DNA from: a candidate division KSB1 bacterium
GTDB taxonomy: Bacteria > Zhuqueibacterota > JdFR-76 > DREG01
Reading direction: 5' to 3'
DNA length: 11,778 bases
Assembly (NCBI GenBank): GCA_022566355.1
Contig: JADFJB010000137.1
Span: 1-11,778 of the forward strand
The notes beneath the pieces were generated by a model. That model searched no databases, was not told the origin of the DNA, and was given only the letters and a program-made list of their open reading frames with translations. Positions 1,515-10,872 of the stretch are shown one piece after another. The position numbers were made by a program, and so were the translations under genes. The number at the start of each line of letters is the position of its first letter. Position 1 is the stretch's first letter.

Positions 1515-2606
1515 ATGAAAGCTGAATCGGTCAAGACAGATTGTTTCCATTACAAGGGCCACATCCCTTGCTGGCCAAACAAAAAATACGATGTGTCATG
1601 TGACTCATGTGATCACTATAAACCCATCCGAACCAAGGTTTTGATTATTAAACTTGCTGCAATCGGTGATGTTATTCGCACTACACCTTTACTTAAAAAG
1701 TTAAGGGAGACAACCCAAAATTGCCATATCTCATGGGTTACAGATAGCCCGGAAATACTTTCGCACAGGCATGTTGATCAAATTTACAAATTCAATTTTA
1801 AATCAGCCTTCATTCTCTCAAATGCAAGCTTCGATATTGCCATCAATTTGGACAAAGACCTCGATGCATGTACATTATTGGATAAAATCCAGGCTTCACA
1901 AAAATACGGTTTCGGCTTAAAAGACGGTACTGTTTTTCCGGTAAATTCTCTAGCCGAACACAAATATCTGACAGGTATATTCGATCATTTGTCAAAAGAA
2001 AATAAGAAGAATTATCTACAAGAAATCTTTGAGCTATGTGGCTTTGAGTTCAACCAAGAACCATATGTTCTGGAAGCAGATCCAAAATATCAGGTTAAGT
2101 GGGCCGGATTAAGAGAACAAGCGGGTTCGAAAAAAATAATCGGTTTAAATATCGGTTGCGGGACGAGATGGCTCACTCGTTTGTGGCCCGATGAATATTG
2201 GTTTGAATTAATCCGAAACTTACAAGATGCGCAACACTATCCGATTCTGTTGGGCGGGAATGATGAAGATGAAAAGAACACGGCGTTTTCCGAAAAAACC
2301 AATGCATTTTACCCGGGGACTTTCTCACTGCTGGAATTTATCTCTCTAACCTCGCAATGTGATATAATTATTTCTGCTGTGACCATGATGATGCATATTG
2401 CAATTGGACTAAAGATCCCGCTGGTTTTGTTTAACAATATCTTCAATCCGCATGAATTTGAACTTTATGATAACGGCATCATTTTACAACCGGATACCGG
2501 TTGCGATTGTTATTATGGCAATACATGTCAGCGTGACCGGCACTGCATGTATGATCTTCCAGTGAATTCGGTTCACAATGCTATCGATGAATTATTGGAT
2601 CGATGA
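1515..2606 (+). CDS. GT9 (heptosyltransferase-like) glycosyltransferase with N- and C-terminal cysteine clusters
   Basis: This 363-residue protein is a GT-B fold glycosyltransferase of family GT9, the family of LPS heptosyltransferases. It would add a sugar to lipopolysaccharide core or another surface glycan on the inner face of the membrane. The N-terminal domain opens with KVLIIKLAAIGDVIRTTPLL (41-60), the GT9 hallmark. The donor-binding half has LNIGCGTRWLTRLWPDEYW (211-229) and VTMMMHIAIGLKIPLVLFNN (289-308). The usual SGDTG before MHIA is replaced by SAVTM. A cysteine-rich N-terminus (C10, C19, C29, C32) and a C-terminal cluster (C330, C332, C338, C344) look like metal-binding knuckles. 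The start follows an in-frame TGA directly, so it is the first possible ATG; no clear Shine-Dalgarno is seen. The stop overlaps the next gene by ATGA. Family is firm; substrate is unknown. Confidence 0.92.
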   Translation: MKAESVKTDCFHYKGHIPCWPNKKYDVSCDSCDHYKPIRTKVLIIKLAAIGDVIRTTPLLKKLRETTQNCHISWVTDSPEILSHRHVDQIYKFNFKSAFILSNASFDIAINLDKDLDACTLLDKIQASQKYGFGLKDGTVFPVNSLAEHKYLTGIFDHLSKENKKNYLQEIFELCGFEFNQEPYVLEADPKYQVKWAGLREQAGSKKIIGLNIGCGTRWLTRLWPDEYWFELIRNLQDAQHYPILLGGNDEDEKNTAFSEKTNAFYPGTFSLLEFISLTSQCDIIISAVTMMMHIAIGLKIPLVLFNNIFNPHEFELYDNGIILQPDTGCDCYYGNTCQRDRHCMYDLPVNSVHNAIDELLDR

Positions 2607-3727
2607 AAATAGCATTACTCTCCACCCTCTACCCTTTTCGTGGCGGTATTGCTCAATTTAATGCGGCTCTATTTAATGAATTCAAAAAAAATCATACCAC
2701 CAAAGCCTATACCTTCACAAGGCAGTATCCCAATTTATTATTCCCGGGGCAAACACAATATGTGACCGAATCTGATAATGCTGAAGTAATCGAATCTGAG
2801 GAGGTGTTAGATTCAATTAATCCATTGTCTTATTATTTAACTGCAAGAAAAATAAATTTATATCGACCAGATCTTTTGATTGCGAAATTTTGGATGCCTT
2901 TTTTTGCACCATCCCTTGGATATGTGTCAAAAAAATTGCGAAAGCAAGGGACAAAATCGATTGCCATAATAGATAATTTGATTCCCCATGAAAAAAGAAT
3001 AGGCGACTTGGCCCTGGTCAAATATTTTATCAATCGTTTTGATGCCTTTGTTGTGATGAGCAAAGTAGTCGAACAGGATTTATTGCGAGTTTTACCTAAG
3101 GCTCAATATGTTCTGCATCCCCACCCGATTTATGATCATTTTGCCAAGAAGGTCGAAAAAGAAAAAGCGCTAAATCAACTGAACCTTCCGCAAGACAAAA
3201 AGATACTGCTCTTTTTCGGATTCATTCGAAAATATAAAGGACTGGATATTCTACTCAGATCTATGCGCCATTTAAGTGATGATTATCTTCTGCTTGTAGC
3301 CGGTGAAATCTATGGCAGTTTTGATGAATATCAAAAAATAATTGATGAAGAAGAAATCGCCGGGAAAGTCAGCTTGCATATTCGTTATATTAATGATGAT
3401 GAAGTCCCACTATTTTTCTCGGCAGCGGATGTGACTGCTCTCCCTTATAAATCAGCCACACAGAGTGGGATTGCGCAGATTGCAATGCATTATGAATTGC
3501 CGCTTATCGTGACCCAAAAAGGCGGATTACCCGAACTGATTGAACACGAGAAAACCGGACTCATCCTTAAAAATGAAGATGCCGAAGAATTAGCCCGTTT
3601 AATCGACTATTATTTTCAAAATAATTGTAAATCAAAATTCGCTAGTGAGATTGCAAAACAAAAGGACCGGTACTCCTGGCCACAATTTACCCAAAGCCTC
3701 TTAACACTTTATGAACAACTTTCTTGA
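2603..3727 (+). CDS. GT4-family glycosyltransferase
   Basis: This 374-residue GT-B glycosyltransferase belongs to the GT4 (retaining) superfamily. The N-terminal acceptor half begins MKIALLSTLYPFRGGIAQF (1-19), where RGGIAQ is a typical glycine loop. The donor half starts at ILLFFGFIRKYKGLDILL (201-218). It carries LPYKSATQSGIAQIAMHYELPLI (280-302) and then GGLPELIEHEKTGLI (307-321). The canonical first glutamate of the EX7E motif is replaced in the SATQSG segment, while the glutamates of GGLPELIE remain. The ATGA overlap with the GT9 gene implies translational coupling, and the two enzymes probably work on the same surface glycan, heptose- or hexose-containing. No membrane segments are seen. 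The stop is TGA, and no clear terminator follows before the minus-strand relic. Donor and acceptor cannot be read from the sequence. Confidence 0.92.
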   Translation: MKIALLSTLYPFRGGIAQFNAALFNEFKKNHTTKAYTFTRQYPNLLFPGQTQYVTESDNAEVIESEEVLDSINPLSYYLTARKINLYRPDLLIAKFWMPFFAPSLGYVSKKLRKQGTKSIAIIDNLIPHEKRIGDLALVKYFINRFDAFVVMSKVVEQDLLRVLPKAQYVLHPHPIYDHFAKKVEKEKALNQLNLPQDKKILLFFGFIRKYKGLDILLRSMRHLSDDYLLLVAGEIYGSFDEYQKIIDEEEIAGKVSLHIRYINDDEVPLFFSAADVTALPYKSATQSGIAQIAMHYELPLIVTQKGGLPELIEHEKTGLILKNEDAEELARLIDYYFQNNCKSKFASEIAKQKDRYSWPQFTQSLLTLYEQLS

Positions 3728-3757: not shown

Positions 3758-4518
3758 TTATTCCTTTTCCAGCGCCTCGAGTTTCTTTTCACAATAGGAT
3801 TTGGCAGCAACTCCATTACTTTTTCATAGTTTTGTTTCGCTAATGCTTTATCATCTTTCATCACATGGAGCTCAGCTAACTAATGTAAAGTAACTCATGA
3901 AAGATTTAGTTAGGATAATGATCAATATTCAATTTAAGTATTTCGATTGCTTCTTCACTTTGATTTTGCATTGCCAGTTGACTGGCAAGCCGGGTTAGTA
4001 CATTTTTCCGAAAATCGTAAACAAAGCTGAGTTCCCGCAAATCATGGTATTTTGAGATAGCTGCTTGTATACCTTCTTCAGAAACGGTTGCCGTCAGTAC
4101 CTCTTCAAGCGTTTGCTGCAGATTCTGGCCATGCTGACAGGTTGTACAATTGACTTCAATGGTTTTCTCTCTACCCAATTTTGTCATATATTGGCTGTTA
4201 ATTTCTTTGGTCATCTTGAGCATAAACCGAGCAATTTCTTTGGTCTCTTTTTCATCTGCAGGAAAATCGAATTGCGAAAGTGGCATCCTTCTTCACCCAT
4301 AAGGCAATACTGGCAACGAAAACCAAGCGCCCGGTAAAGCCTTTCATATTTTCGATAAGTTCATTGATGGCTATTTCTTTTGGAAACACCTTCAAGTTTT
4401 TCAATTCTTTTGGCGGAAACTGGGCACAAACATTAGCTGCGCCGAATAATAAGATCAACAAAAAAAATGCTAGGACCTTCCTCCATGTTTGTATTTTGTT
4501 TATTTCAGACTTTATCAT
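3758..4518 (-). pseudogene. decayed dihaem c-type cytochrome (reaction-centre cytochrome-like) with TPR tail
   Basis: Joining frames on the minus strand gives one recognisable protein. From ATG 4518 (ribosome site AAAGGAG, 4525-4531) it has a signal peptide ending NVCA-Q, then PPKELKNLKVFPKEIAINEL. A frameshift near 4325 leads to ALGFRCQYCLMGEEG, and another near 4286 to PLSQFDFPADEKETKEIARF, then VNCTTCQHG. A helical, TPR-like stretch follows (SEEAIEILKLNI), a stop at 3906-3908, a further frame with AELHVMKDDKALAKQNYEKV, and a last shift to KKLEALEKE and TAA (3758-3760). The layout matches the short dihaem cytochromes related to the photosynthetic reaction-centre cytochrome subunit. Both CXXCH motifs have lost histidine: CQYCL (4301-4315) and CTTCQ (4134-4148). 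At least three or four frame breaks make function very unlikely. A living paralogue probably exists elsewhere. Confidence 0.85.
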
Positions 4519-8220: not shown

Positions 8221-8910
8221 TTATGCAGAAGCAGAAAGAAACGAGCCAGACGAAATTGCAAATGTGACTGTCTGAAATTGAACGCCAACTGAATAGAAAA
8301 TTGTGCCGTTTATTTTTTGGCGATGACATTCAACTACTTTCGCGATTGCTTTAAGCAAAGCTCCGCTTACTTTAATGACGATATTGTTTGGCAAACCCTT
8401 CTTACTGAGGAAGCGCATGCCCTTCGGCGAAAGATCAATAATGTCTGCATCATCCCCCTTTTGCGGCCAATACGAATAAAATCGAATTTTACCGAATTTC
8501 TTGATCCGCACCACAGAGCGGCGGCATTTCTGTTCCAGCTCCTCATCATCGCTTGATTCCAACGGACAGCTACACGTATAACAGGTTTCATTTGGACTTG
8601 CCTTGCGGGCTAAGGGTCGTTTACAAAAGGGACAAAAAACACGAATTATTGGCGTCTTTTCGGGCTCCTTTGAGGAAAAAGGTTCCTTAGTATAATATTC
8701 ATAAAGTTTAATATCATAGACTCCGCGTTGAAAGGGATCGCTGAGAACCTCATAGGCTTCATTTAATACCTTGGCATTCCAGTGTTCACCTCCTAAATCC
8801 GGATGCTGCCGGAGCTCTTTCATCAATGTACGATAACTTGAGCGAATGATTTCAAATGGCGCGTCGGGCTGAATGTGGAGAACCCGATAATAATTTCGTC
8901 TGGATTTCAT
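8221..8910 (-). CDS. J-domain / zinc-ribbon / PilZ fusion protein
   Basis: This 229-residue cytoplasmic protein has three modules. Residues 6-66 are a J-domain (NYYRVLHIQPDAPFEIIRSSY...AKVLNEAYEVLSDPFQRGVYD) with the catalytic HPD at 36-38, so it should stimulate an Hsp70/DnaK ATPase. Residues 93-115 hold CPFC and CYTC knuckles (C93, C96, C110, C113), consistent with a zinc ribbon. Residues about 128-217 are a PilZ domain with RSVVR (131-135) and DLSPKG (159-164), fitting the RxxxR and DxSxxG cyclic-di-GMP contacts, and the closing strand YSVGVQF (206-212). It lies downstream of the ArsR-SRPBCC gene on the same strand, 109 bases away, and may be transcribed separately. No good ribosome site is seen before ATG 8910, but the J-domain begins at once, so the start is sound. 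The domain calls are firm; a chaperone role controlled by cyclic di-GMP is inference. Confidence 0.9.
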   Translation of the reverse strand: MKSRRNYYRVLHIQPDAPFEIIRSSYRTLMKELRQHPDLGGEHWNAKVLNEAYEVLSDPFQRGVYDIKLYEYYTKEPFSSKEPEKTPIIRVFCPFCKRPLARKASPNETCYTCSCPLESSDDEELEQKCRRSVVRIKKFGKIRFYSYWPQKGDDADIIDLSPKGMRFLSKKGLPNNIVIKVSGALLKAIAKVVECHRQKINGTIFYSVGVQFQTVTFAISSGSFLSASA

Positions 8911-9019: not shown

Positions 9020-9829
9020 TTAACTATGACCTTCCACATACGGCTTCAATCCTTCTTCAAAAAGCAATCTCCAACCTTCAGAAACCTGGGATTGTGTCTC
9101 GTTGGATAACCGGCCGAACAATGCATCTGAAACATGTAATGTTGTTGAACCGTTGGCTTCTGCCAAAGTGAGCTGCAAAATCGTTGTGGCTGGACCGCCA
9201 TATTGTGGCGCCAAGTGTCCAACCAACTGCAATTGGTTTGGAGGTGAAATATTCATGACCGTATACCACACTCCCCCACCTTTTTCGCCGGCATCTTCAT
9301 ACAAACGGCCACCGGGATAGGCTTCGAAAACGAGCTTTGCATTTTCATACACATAAAAATCCTTGCGCCACCAGGTGCCGATTTCCTCGGTGATGGCCTG
9401 CCATACCCTTTGCTTTGAAGCCCGGATATCGATCTTTAACTCGATTTGTGTTGAACTTACCTGCGTAAGACTTTGCTCTTTATCTGTCATACTGATTTCT
9501 CCTTTTTTTTCTTGTTCGATATGTTGTTTTAAATTAGAAATCGATACAGCAAGGGGGATTGTATACTTGCTCATCCAGCGTTCATAAATTTCCTGAATTG
9601 GCGCCGTATTAATAAAATTCCAACGAAATTTACCCTCACGTTTGACAATGACTAAATCCGCATCATGAAGGATGCCAAGATGCTTCATCACCGCAAAGCG
9701 TGACAGACCTTTAAAATAGTCACACAAATAACTCGTTGTTCGAGGCTCCTCTTTTAGAAGATCGAGGATCGTTCTTCGAGTAGAGTCTGAAAATGCTTTC
9801 CAACTTAGATGTTTGTTATTATTGTTCAT
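9020..9829 (-). CDS. ArsR-family regulator fused to SRPBCC (AHSA1) domain
   Basis: This 269-residue protein has an N-terminal winged helix of the ArsR/SmtB type, KAFSDSTRRTILDLLKEEPRTT (11-32) with recognition region LSRFAVMKHLGILHDADLV (42-60) and wing VKREGKFRWNF (62-72). No metal-binding CxC is seen. Residues about 130-266 are an AHSA1-like SRPBCC domain: RVWQAITEEIGTWW (141-154), AYPGGRLYED (170-179), GVWYTVMNISPPNQLQLVG (186-204), GWRLLFEEGLKPYV (252-265). In related bacteria these are often two adjacent genes. Here they are joined through EQEKKGEIS, encoded by an A8 run, and M114 inside has its own ribosome site. No Shine-Dalgarno precedes ATG 9829, which lies inside a palindrome. Likely a self-repressing regulator whose SRPBCC part binds a hydrophobic ligand or is the regulated product. 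Confidence 0.92.
   Translation of the reverse strand: MNNNNKHLSWKAFSDSTRRTILDLLKEEPRTTSYLCDYFKGLSRFAVMKHLGILHDADLVIVKREGKFRWNFINTAPIQEIYERWMSKYTIPLAVSISNLKQHIEQEKKGEISMTDKEQSLTQVSSTQIELKIDIRASKQRVWQAITEEIGTWWRKDFYVYENAKLVFEAYPGGRLYEDAGEKGGGVWYTVMNISPPNQLQLVGHLAPQYGGPATTILQLTLAEANGSTTLHVSDALFGRLSNETQSQVSEGWRLLFEEGLKPYVEGHS
9488..9510 (-). promoter_or_regulatory. internal ribosome binding site and start for standalone SRPBCC domain, with A8 run
   Basis: On the minus strand an A8 run (9503-9510) leads into GGAG (9499-9502), eight bases before an ATG (9490-9488) that is codon 114 of the fusion. Initiation here would give a 156-residue SRPBCC protein. If one A is dropped, the upstream frame reads EQEKKEKSV and stops at a TGA that overlaps this ATG as ATGA. 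The spacing and the overlap look like a former, or still used, two-gene arrangement. Confidence 0.7.
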
Positions 9830-9847
9830 GTTACTTTAGAGTAACAT
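9828..9847 (-). promoter_or_regulatory. palindromic operator overlapping ArsR start codon
   Basis: ATGTTACTTTAGAGTAACAT is a perfect inverted repeat of 8-base arms around four central bases. It includes two bases of the start codon (9827-9829) and extends 18 bases upstream on the minus strand. ArsR-family repressors bind such short dyads near their own promoters, so autoregulation is the simplest reading. Because it replaces the usual ribosome site, the transcript may be leaderless or the hairpin may control translation. Confidence 0.6.
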
Positions 9848-10274: not shown

Positions 10275-10613
10275 ATGGACAAAGTATATTATATTCATTT
10301 AACAATATACTTCAAAAAAGAGGATGATAATCGCTGGACTGCTGAATGTATCGAATTGGGGAGCGCTTCATTTGGCAACAGCCTTGATGAAGCAAAGGAA
10401 AGTATCGAAGAGGCAATAGAATTAAAATTAACTGGTCTTAGCGAAGTAGGTGAGCTTGATAGGTTTTTGAAAGAGAATAATGTTATTATGTTTAAGGAAT
10501 TTCCCCAGGAAATCAAACAACATAAAATCAAGGTGCAACCTAAGTTAGATCCAAATATTTTCGAACAGCATCAGTTTAGATCTTTACAACAATATGCCGA
10601 AGCCTCGGGGTAA
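10275..10613 (+). CDS. hicB: HicB-like antitoxin
   Basis: This 112-residue protein has the partial RNase-H-like fold of HicB antitoxins: a first strand VYYIHLTIYFKKEDDNRWTAEC (4-25), ELGSASFGNSLDEAKESIEEAIELKL (27-52), where the glycine-Ser-Leu-Asp-Glu-Ala turn leads into the long helix, and ELDRFLKEN (59-67). The C-terminal 40 residues (KIKVQPKLDPNIF...) do not show a clear ribbon-helix-helix or HTH and may be the segment that wraps the toxin. GGAGG (10264-10268), six bases before ATG, supports the start. The toxin gene overlaps its end by 20 bases, so the antitoxin is made first and the two are coupled. Order antitoxin-toxin is the reverse of classical hicAB but is known in variant systems. 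Pair context makes the call good. Confidence 0.82.
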   Translation: MDKVYYIHLTIYFKKEDDNRWTAECIELGSASFGNSLDEAKESIEEAIELKLTGLSEVGELDRFLKENNVIMFKEFPQEIKQHKIKVQPKLDPNIFEQHQFRSLQQYAEASG

Positions 10614-10872
10614 TAAAGATTTACCTGCCATATCTGGTAATCAATTAATAAAACTTCTGGTGGATCATGATGGCTGGGAAGTCGCTCGCCGAGCAAACCA
10701 TGGCAAAAGCTTGCGGAAGCAATTCCCTAATGAACGATTTAAAGTAACGGTTATACAAACAACTAATCAATCCTTGCCTATTGGTACTCTTCTTGCGATT
10801 CTAGGCCCAAAGGAAACAGGACTTATGAGGGATGGCTTTATAAAACTTTTAGAGAAACGAAGGAAGAAATAG
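10594..10872 (+). CDS. hicA: HicA-like mRNA interferase toxin (variant)
   Basis: This 92-residue basic protein has the dsRBD-like HicA fold. After a short basic leader comes LPAISGNQLIKLLVDHDGWEVARRANHG (10-37), corresponding to the 'sGkelik.L...Gwe..R..GSH' of HicA, then FKVTVIQTTNQSLPIGTLLAILGPKETGL (49-77), corresponding to the 'vtvP.H...l..GTL..Il' end. The usual G-S-H-H becomes A-N-H-G, with H36 the likely catalytic histidine, as in a HicA subgroup I remember with R-H-G at this place. HicA toxins cleave mRNA without the ribosome. It starts inside hicB (20-base overlap) with no own ribosome site, so it depends on translation of the antitoxin. Fold and pairing are convincing; activity is inferred. 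Confidence 0.8.
   Translation: MPKPRGNKDLPAISGNQLIKLLVDHDGWEVARRANHGKSLRKQFPNERFKVTVIQTTNQSLPIGTLLAILGPKETGLMRDGFIKLLEKRRKK

Follow-up and report, generated by a model that had tools for sequence, protein, structure and literature searches.

The window, i.e., the whole analysed stretch of 11,778 nt from a candidate division KSB1 bacterium, carries on its minus strand (9829..9020) one continuous frame of 269 aa, in which an ArsR-type helix-turn-helix (HTH) is followed by an AHSA1/SRPBCC domain. All Pfam matches lie above the gathering score (PF12840, E = 1e-6; PF01022, E = 2e-6; PF08327, E = 4e-7), in agreement with the first-pass annotation, which had described ArsR and SRPBCC genes joined in a single ORF. 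In the AlphaFold model of the protein (eight-row alignment as input, mean pLDDT 80), a winged HTH with a long helix leads into a stretch predicted to be disordered (residues 110–124, 9458..9502, minus strand, pLDDT <50), after which the SRPBCC fold starts at residue 125. Pfam and the model place the HTH at residues 14–62 (9644..9790, minus strand). The disordered linker includes Met114. As this residue lies ahead of the fold, a product started there would carry the whole second domain. In our alignments, the metal-binding CxC motif of ArsR is missing: a single Cys (TSYLCDYF) occupies that place, and the homologue L032 has none. Searches of the PDB by sequence and by fold returned matches to ArsR and START/AHSA1 proteins of a general kind only.

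On the minus strand the linker reads ATC GAA CAA GAA AAA AAA GGA GAA ATC AGT ATG ACA GAT. It contains a run of eight A's (GAA AAA AAA GGA, 9503–9510), a Shine-Dalgarno (SD) sequence, AAGGAG (9499..9504), and, 8 nt further 3′, the in-frame ATG of Met114 (9488..9490). Re-reading the sequence bore out the earlier statement that seven A's would restore two coupled genes: ArsR would then be 113 aa long and end in EKSV*, and its TGA (9487–9489, formed by the TG of the internal start and the next A) would overlap the ATG as ATGA. With nine or six A's, ArsR would end in RRNQYDR* at a stop no more than 11 nt from the internal ATG. Thus, any out-of-frame slip would terminate ArsR beside the SRPBCC start.

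The ribosome-binding site noted in the first-pass annotation is a strong one. In the host genome, which does use SDs, 0.9% of internal ATGs and 13% of gene starts match its duplex energy (−8.7 kcal/mol). The primary start of the fused ORF has none (+0.3). The predicted second product is the SRPBCC domain alone, 156 aa or about 17 kDa (9020..9490, minus strand).

The host's own phylum yielded no close homologue, and the best match across both domains was 27% identical and split. Contig scans with the single protein as the query yielded no relatives; with an alignment as the query, they revealed that Acidobacteriota, Saprospiraceae, Bacillota, Actinomycetota, and Myxococcota harbour fused forms, whereas Planctomycetota are among the groups with split forms that overlap. 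An Aminobacter plasmid also bears a fused form. Whole-genome surveys added further loci, and a survey of Bacillota with an actinobacterial profile gave almost nothing more. Altogether, domain profiles recognized 44 tandem split pairs and 87 fused ORFs, 67 of them distinct and spanning at least six phyla, "fused" meaning an open frame in a public assembly. The loci were collected through their resemblance to the window and to a single actinobacterial group, so their frequencies do not estimate those in populations. Fusion has a scattered distribution (L032–L036 vs. L037 and L072): Planctomycetota are mostly split, and their closest relatives from Acidobacteriota and Saprospiraceae are fused. 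A third arrangement occurs in rhizobia and Paracoccus (L029 967–1833, L030 976–1830), where the closest single-domain ArsR gene is divergent from the SRPBCC gene.

Among 39 non-redundant split pairs, the commonest layout is a 4-nt overlap between the stop of ArsR and the start of SRPBCC (ATGA or GTGA, 14 pairs); an 8-nt overlap comes second (5 pairs). The comparison of homologues proposed in the first-pass annotation thus turned up both forms, and they interleave on the tree: an approximate 107-row quick tree with flagged long branches requires at least 9 to 12 changes between the fused and split states. The rows nearest to the window are split. The prevalence of the ATGA-type layout and the repeated state changes make a one-base fusion of a coupled ancestor, as suggested earlier, a plausible history.

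An in-frame start codon, picked by position without regard to the SD, is present in the linker of all 67 distinct fused ORFs (ATG in 61, GTG in 6). In a set made nonredundant at 80% identity (n = 47), the mean SD energy at this codon is −7.6 kcal/mol. The corresponding means are −2.4 for 190 in-frame ATGs elsewhere (p = 7e-19) and −3.3 for the best candidate primary start. Synonymous recoding gives a null of −5.8, and 41 of the 47 genes fall below it (p = 3.5e-9), whereas other in-frame ATGs show no codon bias towards an SD. Clade averages undercut the synonymous null in 20 of 23 fused clades (p = 2e-4) and the other ATGs in 21 of 22. Additionally, a start preceded by an SD of −5 or better was found in 60 of 67 linkers vs. 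15% of windows of equal length in the same ORFs. The weak sites belong to two Saprospiraceae, one other member of Bacteroidota, and four Arthrobacter/Pseudarthrobacter sequences. Bacteroidota rely little on SDs.

The excess over the synonymous null is modest, because the paired and clade-level tests are significant but the per-gene synonymous p-values combined by Fisher's method are not (p = 0.20). Much of the SD strength is therefore owed to the Glu/Gly/Lys-rich linker itself. Of 20 actinobacterial members in a gapless set, 18 have M and two have V (both encoded by GTG) at the start, while the two preceding residues vary; this retention with replacement by another start codon is suggestive, although the cases are few.

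The first-pass annotation counted fused relatives that mostly lack both the A run and the internal ribosome-binding site as evidence against its reading. The run is indeed missing from them, but the site is kept. As relatives without the run retain the internal start, a separate SRPBCC product requires no slippage. Since the inner start is kept in all 67 ORFs, mostly behind a ribosome-binding site, one gene probably yields two products, the fusion and a separate copy of its second half.

A perfect palindrome, ATGTTACT-CTAA-AGTAACAT (9828..9847, read on the minus strand), covers the first two bases of the primary start codon and is a predicted operator. A candidate DNA target of the fused protein is ATGTTACTCTAAAGTAACAT. 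A motif with the consensus ATGTGAC[CT]-N4-[AG]GTCACATA lies upstream of ArsR-SRPBCC genes, both fused and split, across phyla (loci L032–L249): it was detected at 43 of 66 fused loci (0.3 expected) and 13 of 40 split ones (0.1 expected). The palindrome resembles the operator of Rv2034 of M. tuberculosis, which represses itself and protects positions −30 to +3 of its own promoter, centred on CCGTAAGT-CTAA-ACTTACGG (PMC3338718). In both, a 4-bp CTAA/TTAG spacer separates two 8-bp arms (8-4-8) at the gene start; the arms differ (ATGTTACT in the window vs. CCGTAAGT in Rv2034). As the layout, spacer, and position match the Rv2034 footprint, autorepression of the window gene is supported by analogy. 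A search of the host's own genome for the operator with 2 mismatches gave no more matches than the reversed control, so we claim no regulon. Scans for promoters and terminators near the fused gene did not rise above shuffled sequences.

Two-gene modules combining ArsR with COG3832 (Aha1/START) are known and include Rv2034-Rv2035 (Makarova 2009, PMC2701414; PMC3338718; PMC3968373). The window shares with them the same two families in the same order, the absence of the ArsR metal motif, and short overlaps; an ArsR-family HTH is joined with an AHSA1/COG3832 domain, and a predicted self-operator lies close to the start codon. Unlike such modules, which consist of two separate genes in one operon, the window has a single frame, with the inner start kept inside it. 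We file the gene as a fused variant of the module because the tree intermingles the two states. In 2009 the pairing was predicted to be a toxin-antitoxin-like or resistance module (PMC2701414). A pair from Stenotrophomonas showed no toxicity when tested (PMC7650669); we considered the toxin-antitoxin reading and did not adopt it. In-frame inner starts with their own ribosome-binding sites are also found in phage endolysins with two isoforms (PMC9430671), AerR (PMC6199135), and Cas11b (PMC11899642), and the products predicted for the window are likewise a full-length and a C-terminal one. In contrast to those genes, the inner start here is the start of a gene that is separate in relatives, and the short product is a prediction. 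The ArsR-COG3832 pairing itself is not new; neither the conserved internal start nor the shared operator is described in the open-access papers we found, subscription papers being mostly outside the coverage.

We consider the locus, with a probability of about 0.65, to be an ArsR-COG3832 module like Rv2034-Rv2035, autoregulated and contained in a single ORF, whose SRPBCC half is still made separately by internal initiation. The 269-aa protein would repress itself by binding the palindrome that overlaps its start codon. The SRPBCC pocket would probably take a hydrophobic ligand, the binding of which may relieve repression; a ligand-related role of this domain is inferred from the START-like fold of the model and the polyketide_cyc2 annotation of Rv2035. 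Because the linker retains the ribosome-binding site and start codon of the formerly separate second gene, ribosomes are predicted to initiate also at Met114 and yield the SRPBCC domain alone. An overlapping gene pair would have been fused by a frame change, plausibly by one added A in the lineage of the window.

A competing explanation is that the 269-aa protein is the sole product, with the inner SD and ATG being leftovers of a past fusion and of Glu/Gly/Lys codons. The linker amino acids account for most of the SD strength (−5.8 of −7.6), and, as the states change often, some fusions are recent; fusion by repeated recent events could leave starts behind in the absence of selection. Codon bias towards the SD in 41 of 47 genes and 20 of 23 clades speaks against this account, as does the persistence of the starts, with replacement by GTG, in a fused clade of Actinomycetota with over 20 sequences. 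We regard it as unlikely. An error of sequencing or assembly would mean that the true genome has seven A's and an ordinary ATGA-coupled pair. That is the commonest layout of split relatives, the nearest tree rows are split, and a cytochrome-like gene on the same contig shifts its frame twice within about 60 nt. Close relatives, however, are commonly fused, and the ORFs in the 400 kb of host genome that we sampled are long (about 357 aa on average when those of 100 aa or more are counted), which argues against an indel-ridden assembly. We hold an error at this position to be very unlikely.

The first-pass annotation had proposed that fused and separate proteins arise by slippage. Both products do seem probable, by virtue of the inner ribosome-binding site; the A8 run as the device that produces them is doubtful. 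If RNA polymerase or ribosomes slipped on it, part of the output would be free ArsR ending beside the SRPBCC start and the rest would be the fusion. The nearby stops in both alternative frames would suit such a switch, and A8 can be prone to slippage in some bacteria (PMC1088944). Known slippage genes, e.g., Thermus dnaX and IS elements with A9 (PMC1088944), likewise combine an A run with close stops in the other frames, but the run in the window has 8 nt only, is not conserved, and is not unusual for the host. Among the 67 distinct fused forms, a homopolymer of 8 at the joint is found in the window alone (the next longest has 6), and the A directly after the in-frame start, all that an exact ATGA needs, is present in 21. 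The host sample (400 kb, 40% GC, 307 ORFs) contained 32 A8 runs in ORFs vs. 38.5 expected from synonymous shuffling, and 6 runs of nine or more vs. about 21. Depletion thus starts at nine, the length at which counter-selection becomes visible in a large share of surveyed genomes (PMC1088944). Because it is private to the window, ordinary in frequency, and shorter than 9 nt, the run is probably no switch, and we hold a slippage mechanism to be highly improbable. Within the preferred model of an autoregulated fused module with internal initiation, slippage would merely add some free ArsR and is unnecessary.

The autoregulated module may also be viewed more broadly. It is possible, although we put it forward only tentatively, that ArsR-SRPBCC pairs across many phyla repeatedly fuse and split through minor shifts of frame, with the inner ribosome-binding site preserved by selection, so that each fused gene would make two proteins, a self-repressor that senses its ligand in tethered form and a free subunit that binds it, their ratio tuning repression. 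Such fused genes are annotated as single proteins, and the comparative evidence suggests two products per gene in many phyla. The family permits a direct comparison of fusion, splitting, and internal initiation. Additionally, the shared operator makes this long-predicted and little-studied module testable as an autoregulated ligand sensor.

Several neighbouring features of the window deserve mention. The cytochrome-like gene (CytoC_RC-like, 3906–4518, minus strand) encodes a signal peptide, a GFTG..CQYC motif, and FPADEKET, and its reading passes through three frames within about 60 nt. It is either a pseudogene or the result of assembly indels; its broken frame shows that this contig has local indels, whether genuine or technical. 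Downstream of the fused ORF on the same strand (8221–8910) lies a gene whose 229-aa product has a DnaJ domain at its N-terminus, followed by a long stretch with no annotation. On the plus strand, two small overlapping genes at 10275–10872 resemble a HicB-like (a weak match to DUF7387) and HicA-like pair, both below the Pfam cut-offs. Another coupled pair is found at 1515–3727 (plus strand), where the genes for a family-9 and a group-1 glycosyltransferase share 4 nt.
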